This document shows, piece after piece, positions 3,036 to 44,431 of a stretch of 64,000 bases of DNA. Position numbers and translations under genes: made by a program. Numbering within the stretch: the stretch's first letter is position 1; each line of letters starts with the position of its first letter. Below the pieces are notes generated by a model. It did no database searches. It was given only the letters and a program-made list of their open reading frames with translations, and was not told where the DNA came from. Source of the DNA: a virus; the IMG/VR virus record IMGVR_UViG_3300047089_000244, positions 62,001-126,000 of that record; one strand, 5' to 3'.

Positions 3036-3622
3036 AGCCCCCTCGTGGCACCCTGTTCTTGGCCAAGAGCAACGAGATGCTCTTCATGAAGCTCTTGCGC
3101 GAAGCGAGCAACCTGGATCGGATGGATGTGGAACGTGCAGGTGTTGTTCTGAGCCTTGGACTGGCCCTTGGTCCCCTCGCCCGATTCGCTCCAGTTAGTG
3201 CTGCCCTCCCACGCCAGAACAGAATCAAGGACGCCTCCCTTAGTGTGGCTGATCTGGTGAGACTTGCTCTCCCCGATAGCAAATGACGCGCGGACCTGCG
3301 GGGTCCAAGCTGCGAGGATCTTCTTCTCGTGGACGCCACCACTCTGGCTCTTGTCGAGCGTGCCGACGACGGACACGTTGTCGTTCGTGATGAGGTTGAC
3401 GATCTGGGCATCCAAGGCGTCATCGTCATAGCCGAACATGTTGAAGACGAGGGACCGTGTACAGCGGCTCAGGACGTACGCCAGGGCTCCATGAACGTCA
3501 TCGCGGCCTACGTATAGGACGCGGTAGTCAAGGCTGTCAGAGGGGCTGAAAGTGCCCTCCTGCGTGAACTGGGCGAGGTCGTCTAACTTGAAGGTGTTTA
3601 GAGGCGCTAAGGTTTCAGTCAT
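3032..3622 (-). CDS. Phospholipase D-like domain protein
   Basis: 196 residues. HTKGGVLDSVLAWEGSTNWS (about residues 126-145) is an HxK-x4-D-x6-GSxN motif of the PLD superfamily. It is a single-motif protein, as in Nuc-type nucleases, which work as homodimers. An earlier VLSRCTRSLVFNMFGYDDDA segment fits the first half of the fold. A nuclease or phosphodiester-transfer role is likely, but the substrate is unknown. AAGGGACG precedes the ATG. Confidence 0.85.
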   Translation of the reverse strand: MTETLAPLNTFKLDDLAQFTQEGTFSPSDSLDYRVLYVGRDDVHGALAYVLSRCTRSLVFNMFGYDDDALDAQIVNLITNDNVSVVGTLDKSQSGGVHEKKILAAWTPQVRASFAIGESKSHQISHTKGGVLDSVLAWEGSTNWSESGEGTKGQSKAQNNTCTFHIHPIQVARFAQELHEEHLVALGQEQGATRGL

Positions 3623-19534: not shown

Positions 19535-19560
19535 ACATATTAGGGTCTAGATCGCATCGC

Positions 19561-19590
19561 TTGACATGCCCTAGAGGGTTGTGCTACTCT
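19561..19590 (+). promoter_or_regulatory. Promoter of the RlpA-like gene
   Basis: TTGACA at 19561-19566, 18-nt spacer ending TGC, TACTCT at 19585-19590. Unlike most promoters here it leaves a leader of about 30 nt with a ribosome site. Confidence 0.75.
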
Positions 19591-19628
19591 GACCGATTCA
19601 CAATCCACAACAAAGGAGTAGGAGAACA

Positions 19629-20024
19629 ATTTCGTTTGCTACTACAGCCGCAGTACTCATAGCATTTCTGCCGTTTTCCGTAGTTCACCATCCGCATCAC
19701 GTCCATCATCGCCACCATCACTACCATCACCAGCCTACACTAAGTCTGGCGACCGCATCTTGGTACGAAGATGGAATCGAAAATACCGCCTGTGGCGACC
19801 ATCTGAACGATGGCTATGCACAGGGCATATATGGCGTATTGAGCACCTACTGGCCATGTGGAACCCGTGCAGAATTTTGCTACGCTGGTCGTTGTGTCAT
19901 CGGTACGCGCGAGGACTCTGGTCCATACATTATAGGCCGGACGTTTGATCTCACGCCGAGTCTCAAGGCCGACCTCGGATGCACCGATCTATGCCCTTTG
20001 AAATGGCGTAAGCTATCGGCTTGA
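19629..20024 (+). CDS. RlpA-like secreted barrel protein, AUU start
   Basis: 131 residues. AAAGGAGTAGGAGAACA leads into ATT (19629-19631), and the frame then reads a signal peptide (SFATTAAVLIAFLPFSVV), a His-rich linker (HHPHHVHHRHHHYHH) and a double-psi beta-barrel domain like RlpA/expansin: TASWYEDGIENTACGDH, YWPCGTRAEFC, GPYIIGRTFDLTPSL. No ATG, GTG or TTG lies between the upstream TGA and the signal peptide; the first TTG (19839) would destroy the domain. Family members bind or cleave peptidoglycan. An AUU start is inferred. Confidence 0.75.
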   Translation: MSFATTAAVLIAFLPFSVVHHPHHVHHRHHHYHHQPTLSLATASWYEDGIENTACGDHLNDGYAQGIYGVLSTYWPCGTRAEFCYAGRCVIGTREDSGPYIIGRTFDLTPSLKADLGCTDLCPLKWRKLSA

Positions 20025-20050
20025 CAGACGGGCGCATCATCTGCTAGACT
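20021..20050 (+). promoter_or_regulatory. Promoter of ncRNA candidate
   Basis: TTGACA at 20021-20026 (overlapping the RlpA-like stop), 18-nt spacer ending CATCTGC, TAGACT at 20045-20050. No start codon or ribosome site follows within 150 nt. Confidence 0.75.
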
Positions 20051-20056
20051 CCGTAT

Positions 20057-20170
20057 TGTTGCAGCCCTCTGAGTCGAGCAGAGTAGAGCGCGACACCCCA
20101 CTCGTGATGAGGGTGGGGACTCGTAGGTCATCAGTATAGAGCCCAGACTTCCCCCGGAGTCTGGGCTCTT
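20057..20170 (+). ncRNA. Candidate structured small RNA
   Basis: About 115 nt between a consensus promoter and an 11-bp terminal hairpin, with no convincing ORF. Hairpins visible: CTCTG/CAGAG near 20067-20083, CCCCA-CTC/GAG-GG-TGGGG near 20096-20118, and the terminal stem. It is not a tRNA (no T-arm). It could be a regulatory sRNA, antisense decoy or anti-defence RNA. Confidence 0.6.
20139..20168 (+). terminator. Terminator-like hairpin
   Basis: GAGCCCAGACT / AGTCTGGGCTC, a perfect 11-bp stem with an 8-nt loop, followed by TTGCTGTTGT. The T-run is weak but the stem is strong. Confidence 0.65.
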
Positions 20171-20184
20171 GCTGTTGTAGGGTC

Positions 20185-20214
20185 TTGACGCGCCGCACAG
20201 ATAGCTGATATACT
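20185..20214 (+). promoter_or_regulatory. Phage promoter, leaderless type
   Basis: TTGACG at 20185-20190, 18-nt spacer, TATACT at 20209-20214, 8 nt to ATG 20223. It drives the plus-strand operon to 23.7 kb. Confidence 0.85.
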
Positions 20215-20222
20215 GCCGCTTC

Positions 20223-23410: not shown

Positions 23411-23676
23411 GCGATCCAATCACTAATACCTGTGAATACTGTGGGTCTTCAGACGTAATGGACGATGCCTGGTGGTGCGATAGCCCGGAGTGCTGGGAAG
23501 CCTACAGTCACGAAGAAGACAAGCGTATGAAATACGAGCATCGCACACCGCTCACCATACACAAGGCCGTCCTAGACCTGAGCACAACCAGAGCCTCGGT
23601 CTGGGGACCCTCCTTTACCAAGATCGAACGCGCAGCCGAAGGACTTGCTCGACTGGCACGACTACCCGTCCACTAA
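23407..23676 (+). CDS. Zinc-ribbon protein
   Basis: 89 residues from GTG 23407. CEYCGSSDVMDDAWWCDSPE is a Cys cluster, followed by a helical tail. Last gene of the operon, convergent with a coiled-coil gene. Confidence 0.65.
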   Translation: MSDPITNTCEYCGSSDVMDDAWWCDSPECWEAYSHEEDKRMKYEHRTPLTIHKAVLDLSTTRASVWGPSFTKIERAAEGLARLARLPVH

Positions 23677-24035
23677 GAGCGCGCAATCAGCGAACGGTGT
23701 AGCTCATGTGTGAATTCCTCGAACTTATCTTTGAGGTAATCGGGTTCGTCTGCGATGCTTTCGCGTAGATTAGGCTCAAAAAGAACGATAAGATCGACCA
23801 AGCTTTCATACGCAGCCATAGCCCTATCTAGTTCCTCTTTCAGATCAGAGTTCCTAATCCACTCCTCTGTCAATTCGTCGTAGAGGTCGTCAAAACCCTC
23901 CTCTAACGTTACATACCTCTTCTCTACCTTTACATACCGTTCATGAGCGTCATGAGCGTCATCAATCGCATCATCTGCTCGGTCCTCGGCATCATCTGCT
24001 CGGTCCTTCCAGTAGTTCTCATCAATTGTAGCCAT
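23673..24035 (-). CDS. Acidic coiled-coil protein
   Basis: 120 residues from ATG 24035, favoured over 24062 by its -10 box. Alternating Asp/Ala/Arg repeats (DRADDAEDRADDAIDDAHDA) run into a long coiled coil. Dimerisation or DNA mimicry is possible, not shown. Confidence 0.7.
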   Translation of the reverse strand: MATIDENYWKDRADDAEDRADDAIDDAHDAHERYVKVEKRYVTLEEGFDDLYDELTEEWIRNSDLKEELDRAMAAYESLVDLIVLFEPNLRESIADEPDYLKDKFEEFTHELHRSLIARS

Positions 24036-24041
24036 GACTCC

Positions 24042-24063
24042 ACTATAGCAGATGTGATACACT
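24042..24063. promoter_or_regulatory. Divergent pair of leaderless promoters
   Basis: Plus: TACACT at 24058-24063, 7 nt to ATG 24071, with ATGACT at 24034-24039 as a weak -35. Minus: TATAGT (24047 to 24042), 6 nt to ATG 24035. Both -10 boxes are preceded by TGC/TGTGA and face away from each other. Confidence 0.75.
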
Positions 24064-24070
24064 GAACAAC

Positions 24071-24295
24071 ATGGATAAGCTGACCAACGAAGACATGCGC
24101 GTCATCCACGAAGAATTCGTGGACAAGTACTTTCGCGGCAACGACAACATCGTTGGCGTCACGCGCATCAAACGCACGCCGTTCTCGTGGGCGATCCTCG
24201 TGACAGCCAAAAACCCCGCCTATGTCTCATGGCCCTATGAGTTCAAAGGCATGAAGGTGCTCGCGGAGCAGGGTGAGCCGGGTATCCTGTTATGA
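24071..24295 (+). CDS. Hypothetical protein
   Basis: 74 residues: helix-strand (NEDMRVIHEEFVDKYFRGN) then beta (FSWAILVTAKNP). It directly precedes the RF-1-like gene and overlaps it (ATGA), so the two may work together. Confidence 0.7.
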   Translation: MDKLTNEDMRVIHEEFVDKYFRGNDNIVGVTRIKRTPFSWAILVTAKNPAYVSWPYEFKGMKVLAEQGEPGILL

Positions 24296-27996: not shown

Positions 27997-28241
27997 GCGC
28001 GTCTTTTCCTTTTGAACACTCGTTTTTCAACTTTGATAAGAGTAACCGATCCTCTTTCGGTACATAGAAGTACTCCTACAAGCATTAGCGCTGCATCTCC
28101 AATCCACACATTATGGAAAACATCGGTAGCGTTGACGAAGACCATTGACAGGACGGCCCAGAATCCCGCCTGCTTGCCGTTAGGGAGTTCGCTCGTAGCA
28201 GTGAGAGATGCGACTTTTGATTTGCGTCGTGATAGTCTCAT
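27993..28241 (-). CDS. Membrane protein with basic ends
   Basis: 82 residues. Basic N-terminus (MRLSRRKSK), two hydrophobic segments (FWAVLSMVFVNATDVF, AALMLVGVLLCT) and a very basic tail KVEKRVFKRKRRA. Own leaderless promoter. Confidence 0.65.
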   Translation of the reverse strand: MRLSRRKSKVASLTATSELPNGKQAGFWAVLSMVFVNATDVFHNVWIGDAALMLVGVLLCTERGSVTLIKVEKRVFKRKRRA

Positions 28242-28345: not shown

Positions 28346-28552
28346 ATGGAAACTCAGACCCCTGAACGAGCATACGCAGAGGCTCGCAGTATAGGTTGGC
28401 GTCATGAAGTAGCTATGTGGGCTGCCCATGAGATGGTCTGGTATTCGAGGAAGGGATCAGAACGCCCTGCCCGTCCTGTACTGTTTGGACGCATGAACGT
28501 TTTGTCAACTCAGCGCGGCTTGATAAACACGTACTGGCAGGATCATCGATGA
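28346..28552 (+). CDS. Hypothetical protein
   Basis: 68 residues, helical then beta (ERAYAEARSIGWRHEVAMWA, RPVLFGRMNVLST). Leaderless. No family. Confidence 0.65.
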   Translation: METQTPERAYAEARSIGWRHEVAMWAAHEMVWYSRKGSERPARPVLFGRMNVLSTQRGLINTYWQDHR

Positions 28553-29447: not shown

Positions 29448-29662
29448 CGACTCATGCAACGGAGACGCACTCGTCGCAGGCGCTCCACAATCAAAGGACA
29501 ACAATTGTTGTGAGTCCTATCTCCACCTGAGCCACTCGTACCTGCGATGCGCAACGAACAGTAGGGACAATCACCATGCTCATCAAGCAACGCATTGCTG
29601 CTGATCTCATAGTTCGATAAGCCCGTGAGATCAACCCTACGTATAGCTGGAAGAAAGTACAT
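29444..29662 (-). CDS. Small Cys-rich protein
   Basis: 72 residues. EHGDCPYCSLRIAGTSGSGG, then THNNCCPLIVERL: probable zinc site. It has a -10 box at the standard leaderless spacing, which favours it over overlapping plus-strand frames. Confidence 0.6.
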   Translation of the reverse strand: MYFLPAIRRVDLTGLSNYEISSNALLDEHGDCPYCSLRIAGTSGSGGDRTHNNCCPLIVERLRRVRLRCMSR

Positions 29663-29727: not shown

Positions 29728-29793
29728 ATGGATATGCTCCTCTACTTCGCTTTCTTCGTTATCCTCTTCCTGCTATTCCTTGCTGCGTTCTAA
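29728..29793 (+). CDS. 21-residue membrane micro-protein
   Basis: MDMLLYFAFFVILFLLFLAA then F: almost entirely one hydrophobic helix. Exact promoter spacing and a second micro-ORF 3 nt later support it. Confidence 0.6.
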   Translation: MDMLLYFAFFVILFLLFLAAF

Positions 29794-29895: not shown

Positions 29896-30057
29896 TCATT
29901 GAGTTGGGGCGTATTGCCGCCCCTCTACTCGCACTGGGATCATGAGCGCTGGAGTACCGAGTCTGCGCCAACGCCAAGCGCCGATCAGGTATAGTAATGA
30001 CTCCCATCTGCGCCAGTCGCCCTTGTGACCATCTGCGTATACGATACGATAGAGCAT
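29896..30057 (-). CDS. 53-residue basic protein
   Basis: MLYRIVYADGHKGDWRRWES then Trp/Arg-rich (LIGAWRWRRLG) and a beta end. It shares a palindromic divergent promoter with the gene at 30091; GGGAGGC separates the -10 box from the ATG. Confidence 0.7.
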   Translation of the reverse strand: MLYRIVYADGHKGDWRRWESLLYLIGAWRWRRLGTPALMIPVRVEGRQYAPTQ

Positions 30058-30064
30058 GCCTCCC

Positions 30065-30084
30065 AGTATAGCATCTGCTATACT
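30065..30084. promoter_or_regulatory. Palindromic divergent leaderless promoter pair
   Basis: AGTATAGCA-TC-TGCTATACT is a perfect 9-bp-arm palindrome. Plus TATACT 30079-30084 lies 6 nt before ATG 30091; minus TATACT (30070 to 30065) lies 7 nt before ATG 30057. Two start sites lie about 34 bp apart, facing away. Confidence 0.85.
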
Positions 30085-30090
30085 AAGCTT

Positions 30091-30378
30091 ATGCCACCGA
30101 TCATCCCAGACGCCAACGGTAAAACCATACGCACGATCATCCAGAACACAGATGGCGAAGGCGCAATCACGATCTCATTCACTGATGGCGAGTACTTGGT
30201 CATTGGTGCCGACCTACGTCTTTTGCGTGAGCCCAAGAGGCCGCTTGGCACTGTCTCTAGCACACCGATGTTTAGCGTGGTACTGGACGCTGTGCTCTCT
30301 TCGCAGCTTCGTTATGATCGACAGGTGAAGTCTACTCTACCTGCGACCACGCTAGTAAGTACTGCTCCTGCAACCTAG
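30091..30378 (+). CDS. Hypothetical beta-rich protein
   Basis: 95 residues. PDANGKTIRTIIQNTDGEGA, ITISFTDGEYLVIGADLR: a small beta domain, then a Thr/Ser-rich tail. Leaderless, divergent from the 53-residue gene. Converges with a 47-bp overlap on the next minus-strand gene. Confidence 0.65.
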   Translation: MPPIIPDANGKTIRTIIQNTDGEGAITISFTDGEYLVIGADLRLLREPKRPLGTVSSTPMFSVVLDAVLSSQLRYDRQVKSTLPATTLVSTAPAT

Positions 30379-34266: not shown

Positions 34267-34404
34267 CTAATGACCCCAAGGTGTATCAAGTAGCTGTGCG
34301 CGCCAGTGTCGCCATATCTTACCATCAGGCCACTGAGCACGACACCAGCCATCATCGTACTCCTCAATGAGAATGACAGGTTTGCCTAGATAGTACTTAG
34401 TCAT
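34267..34404 (-). CDS. 45-residue protein
   Basis: MTKYYLGKPVILIEEYDDGW then CRAQWPDGKIWRHW: SH3-like beta pattern. Leaderless promoter, divergent from the membrane gene at 34452. Confidence 0.65.
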   Translation of the reverse strand: MTKYYLGKPVILIEEYDDGWCRAQWPDGKIWRHWRAQLLDTPWGH

Positions 34405-34412
34405 TGGCGATC

Positions 34413-34445
34413 ATCGTAGCACAGATGTCGTCTACGTGCTACACT
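34413..34445. promoter_or_regulatory. Divergent pair of leaderless promoters
   Basis: Plus: TGC-TACACT (34440-34445), 6 nt to ATG 34452. Minus: TGC-TACGAT (34418 to 34413), 8 nt to ATG 34404. Confidence 0.65.
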
Positions 34446-34451
34446 GGTTGT

Positions 34452-34619
34452 ATGCACGCTCAAGAAATAGTCGGTGGTGTTATCGGATGGTGCGTTGGCT
34501 GTCTTCTGACTGTCGCGTCTATCGAAGCCACATCGACCTTCCGTGGGATCATCTTGCCATTGCTCATTGGTGTGCCCTTCACCCTATGCTTTATGTGGCT
34601 TGGCTCACATGTTGAATGA
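34452..34619 (+). CDS. 55-residue membrane protein
   Basis: VGGVIGWCVGCLLTVASIEA and GIILPLLIGVPFTLCFMWLG: two helices. Leaderless; the stop overlaps the next ATG. Confidence 0.7.
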   Translation: MHAQEIVGGVIGWCVGCLLTVASIEATSTFRGIILPLLIGVPFTLCFMWLGSHVE

Positions 34620-35506: not shown

Positions 35507-35688
35507 AATGTACTCTCCTTGCTCAAGCGACGATAAGCGTCACACTGAATGCACTCTCCCGGCCCGTGCTCTTCACCCTCAGGAATCAACCCAAGCAAAT
35601 CATATGGTGAATCAAAGACCACACGAAGCTCCTTCATACGCTTCAATACGTCATCCTCGTAGTCCACGTCATCATAGCTGCAACCCAT
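35503..35688 (-). CDS. Acidic small protein
   Basis: 61 residues from ATG 35688 (TAATG with upstream gene). YDDVDYEDDVLKRMKELRVV, then CIQCDAYRR. Zinc knuckle at the end. Confidence 0.65.
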   Translation of the reverse strand: MGCSYDDVDYEDDVLKRMKELRVVFDSPYDLLGLIPEGEEHGPGECIQCDAYRRLSKESTL

Positions 35689-36125
35689 TATACCATCTCC
35701 GGTATGTTCTGCTCCTCGCGCCATTTAGCCCATGAGGGATCTATAGCCTTGTGGCGGAGCCACTCCTCTACATCGGGCTTGGGCTCGAAAGGCTTAAACT
35801 CCCCCTCGGCTGTGTCGCGCTCATTCCAGTCGCGGCAGCGCTCGCACACAAAAGCTCCGCGCTCATCGTTGCTGTCGTAGTACTCGACTTCCTCAGCATG
35901 TGATGGCGGACGTTCGGACCATTCGGGCTCTGACTCGCTGTGGAACAGGTGCTCGCTACAGAAGAACAACCCGCAGCCCTGCTCGCCGCCGTAGGGCTCG
36001 CCACCACAGACATAGCCTAGGCCACGATCGATCTTGACCTTACAGTCTGGGTGATCACACACAGCGGGCACACCGTAGCCGATGTCGCGCGCCCACGTGT
36101 CGTCGTATCCGATTTCCCAACCCAC
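35688..36125 (-). CDS. Multi-Cys phage protein (RDIGYGVPA family)
   Basis: 145 residues from GTG 36125. ARDIGYGVPAVCDHPDCK, RGLGYVCGGEP, GCGLFFCSEHL and FVCERCRDW give three or more Cys pairs, a pattern I recall from many actinophages. Zinc-binding; role unknown. GTG start with leaderless spacing and AGGA upstream. Confidence 0.75.
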   Translation of the reverse strand: MGWEIGYDDTWARDIGYGVPAVCDHPDCKVKIDRGLGYVCGGEPYGGEQGCGLFFCSEHLFHSESEPEWSERPPSHAEEVEYYDSNDERGAFVCERCRDWNERDTAEGEFKPFEPKPDVEEWLRHKAIDPSWAKWREEQNIPEMV

Positions 36126-36131
36126 TCCTGC

Positions 36132-36138
36132 TATAATA
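36132..36138. promoter_or_regulatory. Overlapping divergent leaderless promoters
   Basis: Plus: TGC-TATAAT (36132-36137), 8 nt to ATG 36146. Minus: TGC-TATTAT (36138 to 36133), 7 nt to GTG 36125. The two -10 boxes occupy the same base pairs, so only one direction can fire at a time. Confidence 0.75.
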
Positions 36139-36145
36139 GCAGATC

Positions 36146-36199
36146 ATGGACATCTTTGAGCACCAGAAGCGACCAATGCCATCCAGGACCACACTATGA
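36146..36199 (+). CDS. 17-residue leader peptide
   Basis: MDIFEHQKRPMPSRTTL, leaderless, with its stop overlapping the next ATG (ATGA). It likely serves to load ribosomes onto the downstream membrane-gene operon. Confidence 0.55.
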   Translation: MDIFEHQKRPMPSRTTL

Positions 36200-36381
36200 T
36201 CACCATCAAAGATATCGTCAAGCCTCTCCCTCAGCCTTACAAGGCTTATGCCGCACGGCTCGTGCTTGTATGCTCAGTGCCGATCCTCGTGCCCCTCTCC
36301 GTTATTGTGGAAGGTAGCGCGTGGTGCAAGGAGATGTACCGCGAGTATATCGATGCGTGGCAAAGCGTGAGGGAATGGTGA
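36196..36381 (+). CDS. 61-residue membrane protein
   Basis: AARLVLVCSVPILVPLSVIV is a membrane helix between charged ends. Coupled to the leader peptide; TGATG to the next gene. Confidence 0.65.
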   Translation: MITIKDIVKPLPQPYKAYAARLVLVCSVPILVPLSVIVEGSAWCKEMYREYIDAWQSVREW

Positions 36382-39987: not shown

Positions 39988-40262
39988 GCGTTGGAGTGTA
40001 GCAGACCCTCTTTCTCGCGGAGCGTCTGCCCTGCATTGGTTCCCTTCGGGGGCTCCTTACCTAGCGACCGTGTACATCGCCAAGTAACCGGGCAGACGGC
40101 GCAATATAGAATCGGCGTACCAGAAGAACGCTGTTCATTTTCGCTCATGCGGCAGTTCGAGCAACCCAGGAATGCTGCCCCTAAGGGGACTACGAACTCT
40201 CCCTTAGCTTTCTTGTCGGCTTGATACTTACGTATTTCTAATTCACGGAGATTAGCACTCAT
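39981..40262 (-). CDS. Small Cys-rich protein
   Basis: 93 residues. GCSNCRMSENEQRSSG and YCAVCPVTWRCTR are two Cys pairs. Overlaps the AAA+ start by 7 bp and the giant protein stop by ATGA. Probable zinc ribbon. Confidence 0.7.
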   Translation of the reverse strand: MSANLRELEIRKYQADKKAKGEFVVPLGAAFLGCSNCRMSENEQRSSGTPILYCAVCPVTWRCTRSLGKEPPKGTNAGQTLREKEGLLHSNAW

Positions 40263-43200
40263 GACTGAACCAATTCTAGGTCTTCTCGTTCCTTGCGCTT
40301 CTTACGAATCTCTTGTGGTGGCTTAGGCATAGCTATATCGCCACCCTCTAGATCGTCTTCGTGTTCGTCTTCGTCGGTAGCCCCTTCTGCTCGTGGCAAC
40401 CCACCCCAACTCTCGCTACTTGCGCCAGGGCTCTGCATATGCCAAACATGTTCTCGTTGCTGAAGACAACCAGGACAATCGCATGCTACACTGTAAGCAT
40501 GATCAACCCCAATGCCCTTCTGCTGGTCGCCTTCACCACGGTCGTAGGCGCTCTCCTTGGTTCCGTTCTTATCGGCGCTGCGGTAGGCCTCGCTATCGTG
40601 CTGATTGCCACCATCGTTAACTGAGCCCTCAGCTTTCATATAGTTGCGAGGTTGATCCTGCGGATAGCCGACCGGGTGACCTTCAGGGATTGACCATGAG
40701 TGATCACTGTTCTCCTCAGTGGGGTTGAGTCCATGTACAGGGCAGTCAAGCTTGTGCCCCTGATCACATGTACATCCCTCTTTCTCTGGATGAGGATTGC
40801 CTTGTGCTGGCTCTTGCATCGTGGTAGGGGGCATCATACGCGCGTCTGGATACTCGCGTGTATCCGATTGGTCTGCTCCGAAGTGCCAATCGGTATGTTC
40901 ACCTGATCGAAGACTCGGTACGGTCTGAAAGATGTGGTTAATGATGTCAGCCGGGACAGGGTGAGCCTTAGTATCGAGTCCACCGCGTGGTCGGATATTG
41001 AAGAAGTGCGCGCTTCCTTCGCCTAGCTGATATGGAGCATGGCTATCCATGTACTCCGCATGGTGCGGGGAACCTTGTACATTGACTGCCCATGTATGCA
41101 CGTCACCACTAGGCGTCACAAGGCCCTTGCCTGGGATACCCGAGCCTGGTAACCAAGCAAGTTGATGGCTGGCTTCCCTGAACGAGCGATACCCATCGTC
41201 TGCCATTTTCCCGTCAGGGCCGTCGCCCCATGTATGCTCGTCCCATTTGCCATAGCCATTAGGGGTAGCTTCCAAGTTATCCTCGAAGTCCTGCCAAGGC
41301 ATGGCGAACTCAGGAACAGAAGATGTAGGTATCACGCGCGGCTCTCCATCGATTCCCTCACCAACCGGCTTGCCTCGAAAGCCAACCACCCACCGATCTT
41401 GTGGGTCCCAACTCATATGACTCATGTATTCAGAGAGGTGATGGGGATTCCAGAACGATGAATACCCCGGCTTGCGATACTTCTCGCGCATAGTGTCAGA
41501 TATTCCATTGTCCTCGATCGGCACCGTCTCTGCGTGCTCGGTTCCCCACCAAGGCGCATCTGGATGATGCGCACGATAGTAGAGGCCGTTCTCCATCGGC
41601 AACGCCGTTAGCTGTTCGCCAGCTACTCTAGCGTACGCTGTCTGCCAGCTTTTGCTGCTCTCAGTAGGATCGGGTGAGTAACCATGAGCTTTGGCAAATT
41701 CGCGTAACTTGATAGAGCTTGGTTCCGTAATAGAAGCGTTGCCGTGACCAAGCGCGTTATTGATCGCCTGGTCGCCGGGATGTCCACTCAAAAAGAATGA
41801 GGCATGAGGATAGCCCGTAGGATCGCGCAAGCTCATCCATTGGTGATAGGGATACTGGCCTCCAAAGTTATCAATGGAGAAATCATCTAGAGTCTTATAA
41901 GGCTCGTTGGTGTACTCTGTTTCTCCATCGATTTCTCGTCCGGTCCCGCGAAGTCCTTTAGCCCAACAATTATGCATAAGCTGACCCTCCCGCTGACGAT
42001 CCTCTGGGGTCACGAGCTTATGAATTCGCCATTGATCAGGAAATTCATGAACCACTTGCGAAGTATCGGGACCCACTTGCTCAAGAGCCCGAGCCCGTTG
42101 AGGTTGAGTTAGCCCCCCTATGTGCTCGGGGAGATTCACAACTTCCTTCTCGATCTCCGACGGCTCATGCACCTTGAACTCACGAGCCCAGTCTTCCTCT
42201 AGATCGTCAGGCGCTCGATCGGTAGTCACATCCGTGTGCTTCTCAAGAAGCTCCTTCATGATGCCTATGCCTTTGGCATTATGGGAGTGGATGTTCACAC
42301 TCTTGGGCATATGCTTGCGGTGCTCATGCAACCAAATTACAAAGTCGCCGCCGCTCAGCGCATCTGGATTAATGACGACTTTACCCTCGTATTTGACTAT
42401 ACCCAAGTCATGATCAAGCGACATATGAGCGTAGTCATTATCCTTGGCGAGCTTTTTTGCTTCGCTTGCATCTTTGGCCCAATCCCAAGACTCATCAGGG
42501 GGATGTCGCGTATCGTCTAGCCAGAGTTTGTGCCTCGTAAAGGCTAGCCTAGACTGAAAATCCCAGTATTGCTCCTTGCCCTTGAATCCCACGTCCTTGA
42601 TACGAGGATCAGCCTGTTCTACGATATGGCGATAATCACGCGGGTCGTTTTCGCCATACTGATCTGGGCGTGGCTTATAGAATTTGACGCGACCTGCCTG
42701 AGAGATGTTGAAACATGTGTCCCAGAACGTCGTTGGCTGTCCTTCCCACTCGCCACCGTGGGGATCGTAGTCGCCGCCCTCATTAACCATACCTTTGGGA
42801 TGATTGAGCCCAAAGACCTTTTCAGCGTACTGAACATGGCTTGGTCTTCCGTCCTGACCGCTCGTAGGCCACGTATGTACATTGCCCTGAGGATCAAGCA
42901 TACCCTTGCCAGGGGTACCCGGCTCCCAGTTGAGTTGATTACCTTGATTATCAGAGACCTTTGTCTCTGCCCGCATCCAGGTGCGTGGAGCATCTGTGTG
43001 ATAGTCATAGCCCACGGGGCTAGATGGATCTGGGAAATCCAGAGAGTCATCATAAGTTGGTAGCGTCGGATGCAGACCGTGACATGGGCAATCCAACTTA
43101 TGGCCATCTTTGCATGTGCAATCCACATCAACGGGCTCACCATTTCGCTCTCGTAAAGCATTTGGCCATTGATCCTTTGGGTTCCAGCTATCAGCCACCT

Positions 43201-44431
43201 TAGCCGTAGGTTGCCCTATTTTCCACTCAGGGAGAATTTCTTTCTCTTGCCTCTCCCGCCAATATGATCCTGGCTCCTTTAACTCATTCTCAGCATTTTG
43301 AGTATGCTCATATGGTTCATGCAAAGTCAAAGCCTCGGGTAGAATAGAGTGAAGAGCCACTGTCATTCCTGTATCAGGGAAAATAGGATCGTCAATCGCT
43401 TCGTCAATATATGAAGGATCAACCTTCCAAAGATCTCCACGTATATCGACTCCTCCCCCTGCATCCTCAGGATGAGGGGCTAAGTAGACACCTTCAGGTT
43501 GATGTGCCACACTTCCAGCCTCCTCATTGTCGGCCTCTCCCCATGCCGGATTTAAACGGGGATGTGAAACTTGTAATCCGTGCTGCATAATGCGAGCACG
43601 ATCCTCTGTGGGAGCCATATGATAATATGACTCATCTTCGTCATTCCAGTCAGCAATGAAGTGAAGCAACTGAGACTCATATGATGGACGCACTCGTGCT
43701 ATCCTCCATGTATGAGCTCTTTTTTGATGGTCTTTCTTGTCACCCTTTACATGTTCTTGCTCTGTACCATCATCTATATCCTCTCGCGGTGGTGACACTG
43801 AGCTTATCTCTGTCTCGAAGGTAAGCTTAGGTGGCTTGAGCCCTTTTGGTAGCGAGCCATATGCAATCGTCATGTGCGGCTTGAAATCATCATGAGAATA
43901 GGGGCTGATCTCAATACCGTGATCTTCAGCGCGGTCAGCTAATTGATCGTGATGCTCCCGAATCGTATCACTATCACAAGTCAAAACTATAGCATCTTGA
44001 CCCTCTCCCTTCTCTTTAGATGGGAATGCCTTAATATCCTTGATCGTGACCGCATGTTGGTCTTCTGGCCAACCCTGCTCTTTCTCCGAGAAAACATCAC
44101 TTGTCTCAGGAGCATAAAGCATCGTGATGTGATATTCCTCAATTGGCTCAAGCTCTGTGCCCTCCGGCCAATCCTGTTCTTCAGCCCAATTATGGATCTC
44201 AATGCCGATAGGCTTAGGGATACCAAGCCCTATGTGTAACTCATCCCTCTTAGCGGTCTTGATCGAATCATTGTTAGGCGTAAGTTTTTTGATACGCCAT
44301 TCTTCGAGGCGCTCATCTTGAATGGCTTTAACGCGCTGCTCTTGTGGATTGAGAGTGTACGCACGCTCAGATGGTGTCATCTCGATTTCACTCTTATCCC
44401 ATGCACTTGCCTTGGAGGCTTGAGTCAACAT
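40259..44431 (-). CDS. Giant polyvalent protein: 2H + ART + cpREC + PcfJ-like + GKG/HTW
   Basis: 1390 residues; GGAGGCGTCC before ATG. Order: 2H phosphoesterase (H101-I-T, H186-M-T); ART/Tpt1-like (268-372, YYHMAPTEDRARIMQHGL); Cys/His knuckle CTCKDGHKLDCPCHGL (439-453); GKG/HTW module (499-630); cyclic-phosphate receiver (634-735, LWLDDTR, SLDHDLG, NIHSHN); PcfJ-like region (785-915, EGQLMHNCW, SLRDPTGYPHASF); second GKG/HTW module (1090-1190); second knuckle near 1213. Several RNA-end-processing domains in one chain suggest an ejected RNA-repair or anti-defence protein. The individual domain calls rest on motifs only. Confidence 0.8.
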   Translation of the reverse strand: MLTQASKASAWDKSEIEMTPSERAYTLNPQEQRVKAIQDERLEEWRIKKLTPNNDSIKTAKRDELHIGLGIPKPIGIEIHNWAEEQDWPEGTELEPIEEYHITMLYAPETSDVFSEKEQGWPEDQHAVTIKDIKAFPSKEKGEGQDAIVLTCDSDTIREHHDQLADRAEDHGIEISPYSHDDFKPHMTIAYGSLPKGLKPPKLTFETEISSVSPPREDIDDGTEQEHVKGDKKDHQKRAHTWRIARVRPSYESQLLHFIADWNDEDESYYHMAPTEDRARIMQHGLQVSHPRLNPAWGEADNEEAGSVAHQPEGVYLAPHPEDAGGGVDIRGDLWKVDPSYIDEAIDDPIFPDTGMTVALHSILPEALTLHEPYEHTQNAENELKEPGSYWRERQEKEILPEWKIGQPTAKVADSWNPKDQWPNALRERNGEPVDVDCTCKDGHKLDCPCHGLHPTLPTYDDSLDFPDPSSPVGYDYHTDAPRTWMRAETKVSDNQGNQLNWEPGTPGKGMLDPQGNVHTWPTSGQDGRPSHVQYAEKVFGLNHPKGMVNEGGDYDPHGGEWEGQPTTFWDTCFNISQAGRVKFYKPRPDQYGENDPRDYRHIVEQADPRIKDVGFKGKEQYWDFQSRLAFTRHKLWLDDTRHPPDESWDWAKDASEAKKLAKDNDYAHMSLDHDLGIVKYEGKVVINPDALSGGDFVIWLHEHRKHMPKSVNIHSHNAKGIGIMKELLEKHTDVTTDRAPDDLEEDWAREFKVHEPSEIEKEVVNLPEHIGGLTQPQRARALEQVGPDTSQVVHEFPDQWRIHKLVTPEDRQREGQLMHNCWAKGLRGTGREIDGETEYTNEPYKTLDDFSIDNFGGQYPYHQWMSLRDPTGYPHASFFLSGHPGDQAINNALGHGNASITEPSSIKLREFAKAHGYSPDPTESSKSWQTAYARVAGEQLTALPMENGLYYRAHHPDAPWWGTEHAETVPIEDNGISDTMREKYRKPGYSSFWNPHHLSEYMSHMSWDPQDRWVVGFRGKPVGEGIDGEPRVIPTSSVPEFAMPWQDFEDNLEATPNGYGKWDEHTWGDGPDGKMADDGYRSFREASHQLAWLPGSGIPGKGLVTPSGDVHTWAVNVQGSPHHAEYMDSHAPYQLGEGSAHFFNIRPRGGLDTKAHPVPADIINHIFQTVPSLRSGEHTDWHFGADQSDTREYPDARMMPPTTMQEPAQGNPHPEKEGCTCDQGHKLDCPVHGLNPTEENSDHSWSIPEGHPVGYPQDQPRNYMKAEGSVNDGGNQHDSEAYRSADKNGTKESAYDRGEGDQQKGIGVDHAYSVACDCPGCLQQREHVWHMQSPGASSESWGGLPRAEGATDEDEHEDDLEGGDIAMPKPPQEIRKKRKEREDLELVQS
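40485..40492 (+). promoter_or_regulatory. Possible antisense leaderless promoter
   Basis: TGC-TACACT (40487-40492), 6 nt before ATG 40499, on the strand opposite the 1390-residue gene. Confidence 0.4.
40499..40624 (+). CDS. Possible antisense membrane micro-protein
   Basis: 41 residues, MINPNALLLVAFTTVVGALL then GSVLIGAAVGLAIVLIATIV: hydrophobic helices with glycine zippers. It lies inside the giant gene on the other strand. Antisense of hydrophilic coding is often hydrophobic by chance; only the exact promoter spacing makes it worth listing. Confidence 0.3.
   Translation: MINPNALLLVAFTTVVGALLGSVLIGAAVGLAIVLIATIVN

Follow-up and report, generated by a model that had tools for sequence, protein, structure and literature searches.

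The window analysed here is a stretch of 64,000 nucleotides, bases 62001-126000 of a 169,966-base (~170 kb) viral record. At 30065-30084 it carries a perfect 9-2-9 palindrome, AGTATAGCA-TC-TGCTATACT, made up of two abutting extended -10 elements that face outward. On the plus strand TGC-TATACT occupies 30076-30084 (hexamer TATACT at 30079-30084), 6 nt from the ATG at 30091; on the minus strand the same element occupies 30065-30073 (hexamer TATACT at 30070-30065), 7 nt from the ATG at 30057. The original prediction had described just this, a palindrome with a -10 box on each strand, 6-7 nt from the starts. There is no -35-like hexamer 16-18 bp from the plus-strand box. The plus-strand ORF (30091-30378, 95 aa, coding score 12.6) has no family match, and no relative of it was found in the viral contigs searched or in the related phage G001 (167,869 bases). 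The minus-strand ORF (29896-30057, 53 aa) has a coding score of 2.4, which is weak support. Both are predicted to be leaderless. The start codons are 34 bp apart and the boxes 2 bp apart, and the window has a single match to AGTATAGCA-NN-TGCTATACT when up to 3 mismatches are allowed (0.01 expected). The arms are reverse complements of one another because each is the extended -10 box TGC-TATACT. The palindrome is the product of two identical boxes placed back to back, and since the same box stands singly at many other starts, no further explanation of it is needed.

Three similar pairs had been listed, and all are present. In the first, TGC-TATAGT at 24042-24050 on the minus strand is 6 nt from the ATG at 24035, and TGA-TACACT at 24055-24063 on the plus strand is 7 nt from the ATG at 24071 (box gap 4 bp, start codons 36 bp apart). 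The minus-strand ORF (23673-24035, 120 aa, coding score 27.1) has only sub-threshold Pfam matches, to Tropomyosin and YtxH, and its protein has no relative in G001. The plus-strand ORF (24071-24295, 74 aa) has a coding score of 17.3. In the second pair the minus-strand box, TGC-TACGAT at 34413-34421, is weak; it is 8 nt from the ATG at 34404. Its plus-strand partner, TGC-TACACT at 34437-34445, is 6 nt from the ATG at 34452. Here the box gap is 15 bp and the start codons are 48 bp apart. The two ORFs encode 45 aa (34267-34404, minus strand, coding score 9.7) and 55 aa (34452-34619, plus strand, coding score 2.8, weak support).

The third pair is a shared symmetrical extended -10 element, TGCTATAATAGCA, at 36129-36141. 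It is read as TATAAT on the plus strand (36132-36137) and as TATTAT on the minus strand (36138-36133), so that the two boxes use the same bases, as had been claimed, with five in common. This 13-mer occurs once, and not at all in 100 shuffles (0.00 expected). It is 7 nt from the GTG at 36125 (minus strand) and 8 nt from the ATG at 36146 (plus strand), and the start codons are 21 bp apart. With +1 set 7 nt past the box, the predicted transcription starts are 36144 and 36126, a distance of 18 bp. On the minus strand lies a 145-aa ORF with a GTG start (35688-36125), good coding support and a match to phrog_18518, a family of unknown function. On the plus strand a 17-codon ORF (36146-36199), predicted to be leaderless, has a stop codon that overlaps the ATG of a 61-aa ORF (36196-36381; overlap ATGA), which could be entered through that overlap or from a weak AGGA ribosome site. 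A 69% identical relative of the 145-aa gene lacks the promoter: in G001 the orthologue lies inside an operon and has no -10 box; the promoter at 36129 is therefore no fixed companion of this gene. G001 has a shared box of its own between other small genes (L060:12089/12109, CAT-ggttga-TATACTA-gcagcc-GTG), with start codons 20 bp apart compared to 21 bp at 36129. The geometry thus recurs without the genes, consistent with a general construction rule.

The divergent pairs are real and beyond chance. With a site defined as TGnTAYnnT followed, after 6-8 nt, by ATG or GTG, the region from 22 to 40.3 kb has 24 start-linked extended -10 sites compared to 1.85 in dinucleotide shuffles, and 4 divergent pairs whose start codons lie within 60 bp of each other compared to 0.005. 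When the same 24 sites are placed randomly, 0.47 pairs are expected (P of 4 or more = 0.001). Such an excess over random placement is itself expected if gene heads carry the box and a strand change joins two heads; taken alone, it is no argument for pairing as such. Looser pairs are also found. For example, TGC-TATTCT precedes the ATG at 29662 (minus strand) and TGC-TATACT the ATG at 29728 (plus strand), 66 bp apart; TACACT precedes the ATG at 28241 (minus strand) and TATAAT the ATG at 28346 (plus strand), 105 bp apart. At the divergent junctions examined in the window between 22 and 40 kb, both sides have a -10-like box, and the starts are 21, 34, 36, 48, 66 and 105 bp apart. The four close pairs are the tight end of this 21-105 bp series. 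Between 29728 and 29886 are two tiny ORFs (21 and 29 codons), each of which reads as a single hydrophobic segment, the first with its own TGC-TATACT. Elsewhere, at 19535-20222, about 690 bp with no called ORF separate divergent genes, with an inverted repeat near 20138.

Within the window, a peak of TATAnT 6-8 nt before ATG is confined to the region of small genes. Over the record as a whole, there are 14 copies of TGCTATAMT-N6-8-ATG and none of the reversed control; two close portal relatives, G005 and G011, contain 5 and 4 starts of this type, compared to 0 for the control. In an alignment of the sites, the hexamer is preceded by TG and, preferentially, C, 29 of the 49 boxes being TG-extended, and -35 matches at these sites are no better than at random positions. 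Because the hexamer ends 6-8 nt before the start codon, +1 should fall on the start codon, and a leaderless mRNA is predicted. This is the main consequence of the arrangement, and the original prediction overlooked it.

The box is also conserved. TGCTATAAT is kept before orthologues of a 151-164-aa gene in four phages, and TGCTACACT before orthologues of the MEF[TV]L gene in three; the bases on either side differ, and the spacer is between 6 and 8 nt long. These two orthologous groups, of three to four phages each, are direct evidence of selection on the box class; the four divergent sites are not. Three features of leaderless, -10-adjacent promoters are found: a box that precedes the start codon by about 6-7 nt, the absence of a conserved -35, and retention of the box at orthologous starts. 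As judged from the spacing, from which the transcription start is predicted, the boxes would be leaderless promoters lacking a -35, of one class across the phage and its relatives. In four contig stretches (L015, L206, L211 and L205) a GC-rich inverted repeat of the GGAGCGTC...GACGCTCC type abuts the conserved TGCTATAAT box, a terminator-like hairpin beside the next promoter.

The boxes are typical of operon heads, most of all where the strand switches. They are present at 15 of 28 gene starts at divergent junctions and at 9 of 109 inside operons (P = 5e-7), a statistic not fully independent of the motif, as genes were called with a simple codon-usage caller whose scoring favors starts with a -10 box or ribosome site. 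Enrichment, locking to the start codon, conservation of the box class at orthologues and concentration at operon heads and strand switches all lend strong support to the earlier reading of the boxes as outward promoters.

Each site might instead hold a promoter for one direction, with a second box due to -10 symmetry and one spurious ORF. Of the eight ORFs directly next to the boxes, three (30057, 34452 and 36146) are weak or tiny, and the weak coding support at 30057 and 34452 favors this view. So does the behavior of the 13-mer in other viruses, where it is often one-sided: across IMG/VR, TGCTATAATAGCA with an ATG has a mirrored start codon in 22 of 120 cases compared to 11 of 120 at a control offset, a difference that is not significant (P = 0.06). 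In one two-sided family elsewhere, TGCTATAATAGCA is accompanied on one side by a TTGACA-like box and a GIY-YIG-like protein; in L120, L131 and L135, TGCTATAATAGCA and a TTGACA-like box precede a 104-aa protein, GIY-YIG endonuclease-like by eye, and there the element is probably an ordinary one-way promoter, symmetrical by accident. The ORFs at 24035, 24071, 30091 and 36125 have good coding support. Against the one-way reading, both ORFs of the 24042-24063 pair score well. At 24042 and 30065 the boxes are separate, which means that symmetry cannot create the second one, and the association with operon heads is found on both strands. One-way promoters at all of these sites are unlikely.

The phage probably belongs to an actinobacterial-phage lineage. 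Close portal relatives are found at 63-91% identity, and for the tail sheath, AAA ATPase and phrog_18518 proteins most of the nearest annotated relatives are actinophages. A host that reads leaderless mRNA well is therefore likely, as judged from these distant phage relatives. The record gave no match to Sigma70_r2 in a search whose positive controls worked, which fits the use of a host sigma factor and is no proof of it; in a search for a T7-type RNA polymerase no control genome gave a match. The actinophages NiceHouse and Cece were considered as comparators and rejected: the small-gene blocks seen there run almost wholly one way, and the question hardly arises.

It is highly probable that the sites are divergent pairs of leaderless promoters, each an extended -10 (TGC-TATAMT or TGC-TACACT) with no -35, at which a polymerase with the host housekeeping sigma factor starts RNA at or near the start codon. 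The polymerase would bind and melt either box, RNA would begin on the start codon or within a base or two of it, and translation would be leaderless. Many clusters of small genes would be headed by such a box, and where the strand changes two heads would face apart. Without a 5' leader between promoter and gene, the boxes would end up separated by 15, 4 or 2 bp, or superimposed. RNA polymerase covers DNA from about -55 to +20. At 30065-30084 and 36129-36141 the two footprints would overlap almost fully, and occupancy should therefore be exclusive at any instant, with room for a single polymerase. Both directions at 36129 would use one set of melted -10 bases. How much this exclusion matters would depend on promoter strength; the simplest forecast for 30065, where the boxes are identical, is about equal output. 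The benefit is likely to be compactness and a fixed transcript ratio rather than a decision switch.

The pairs are compact versions of promoter layouts that bacteria are already known to have. Judged by sequence, the nearest known kinds would be bidirectional promoters (36129 only, on predicted starts) and leaderless -10-adjacent promoters (all sites, weakly at 34404). In the bidirectional promoters of Warman et al. the divergent starts are 7-25 bp apart and -10 bases are held in common (PMC12825309); the commonest published spacing is 18 bp (Warman et al., PMC12825309; Middlemiss et al., PMC10268837). Only 36129-36141, with a symmetrical -10 read on both strands and predicted starts 18 bp apart, falls in this range, and it differs in that both products are predicted to be leaderless, with start codons 21 bp apart. 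The pairs at 30065 (34 bp), 24042 (36 bp) and 34413 (48 bp) are outside the range and are separate abutting promoters.

Leaderless promoters have precedents in bacteria. In Deinococcus-Thermus, leaderless mRNA arises from -10 boxes located 6-7 bp before ORFs (PMC12340547), and in Mycobacterium tuberculosis 22-26% of genes are leaderless, a -35 consensus is absent, and an extended -10 makes for a stronger promoter (PMC3898074). The phage boxes resemble both in having a -10 6-7 nt before the start, no predicted 5' leader and no -35 requirement; in contrast, they are found on a phage and are packed back to back. TG-extended boxes dominate in the phage (29 of 49) but make up 7% in M. tuberculosis (PMC3898074). 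According to a figure legend in the same paper, M. tuberculosis prpD/Rv1129c is a closely juxtaposed divergent pair in which both starts are mapped as leaderless (PMC3898074). So far as that legend describes it, it shares with the phage pairs two divergent genes with leaderless starts (predicted in the phage), and the likeness is drawn without box spacing; there a bacterial gene lies beside its regulator, while the phage pairs have no known regulator.

The sites had also been called compact two-way switches, and this part of the original prediction is not supported. In such a switch, polymerase competition or a phage regulator bound to the palindrome would make the two genes mutually exclusive. 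The coinciding footprints at 30065 and 36129 would allow it, and there is a precedent in the Pc/Pr promoters of pLS20, overlapping divergent promoters that are very unequal in strength and work as a switch with the RcoLS20 regulator and DNA looping (PMC4207663). In both systems polymerase presumably cannot hold the two promoters at once. Unequal promoters, a regulator and looping are features of pLS20, and none is seen in the phage: the boxes at 30065 are identical, leaving no inbuilt asymmetry, and none of the flanking proteins has a recognized regulator domain or regulator family match. The box is found singly at many other starts, which argues that the palindrome is no special operator. In E. 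coli all five bidirectional promoters tested showed no competition at basal activity, and competition appeared once one side was activated (PMC12825309). A true switch is quite improbable.

The palindrome was also considered as a widespread phage element, and this was rejected. Among viral contigs, 37 stretches carry AGTATAGCA-N0-8-TGCTATACT, and besides the phage's own copies only that in L031 has a start codon and ORF on both sides; many copies have a TTGACA-like sequence and resemble one-way promoters or operators. That these copies lack a start codon and that the inverted repeat is perfect might suggest that the 30065 palindrome is itself an operator or a DNA or RNA hairpin signal, with its -10 likeness secondary, but this is very hard to credit. 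The arms match the clade-wide start-linked box exactly, and each is 6-7 nt from a start codon. Of the other pairs, those that do not overlap are imperfect as palindromes. Both arms at 30065 also lie upstream of both predicted starts, which would put the hairpin in neither RNA.

At large structural genes there is a second motif locked to starts, [CG][AG]TAA, which lies about 5-7 nt before ATG, sometimes with GCTTCTGC upstream. The structural genes that have it lack a ribosome site and a TGCTAYAMT box. It is found in the window at 3622 (minus strand), 9604 (minus) and 12325 (plus), in other stretches at L062:16256(-), L064:1420(+), L064:16399(-) and L065:8443(-), and in relatives at L059:14524(-), L061:12357(-) and L215:2013(-). 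The genes at L065:8443(-) and L215:2013(-) are orthologous, encode 334 aa (MATLAPTFVREGNQVLAFFE and MTTLAPTFVREGSKVLAFFE), and have the upstream block CTAGCTTCTGC-n-TCATAACG-n-GTG-ATG in common. The motif occurs at 9 of 28 divergent-junction starts compared to 6 of 109 inside operons (P = 4e-4), and a loose genome-wide count is only mildly above shuffles. It is possibly a late promoter, likewise leaderless. Tentatively, much of the transcription in this clade might use two timing classes of leaderless promoter, TGCTAYAMT of host type for small genes and [CG][AG]TAA for large structural genes; most strand switches would then be two such promoters, with overlapping pairs fixing an output ratio by polymerase competition. 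We regard this scheme as doubtful.

If confirmed, the phage would offer a clean natural series in which divergent promoters of a single genome, all lacking 5' leaders, have their boxes 15, 4 or 2 bp apart or fully superimposed, so that polymerase competition could be measured against geometry alone. It would also follow that, in phages of this sort, gene finders that depend on ribosome-binding sites will overlook many small genes or give them a wrong start. Further along the window, at 40259-44431, a 1390-aa protein matches cREC_REC and the anti-CBASS Acb1 family / 2'-5' RNA ligase fold, possibly an anti-defence part within a multi-domain protein.
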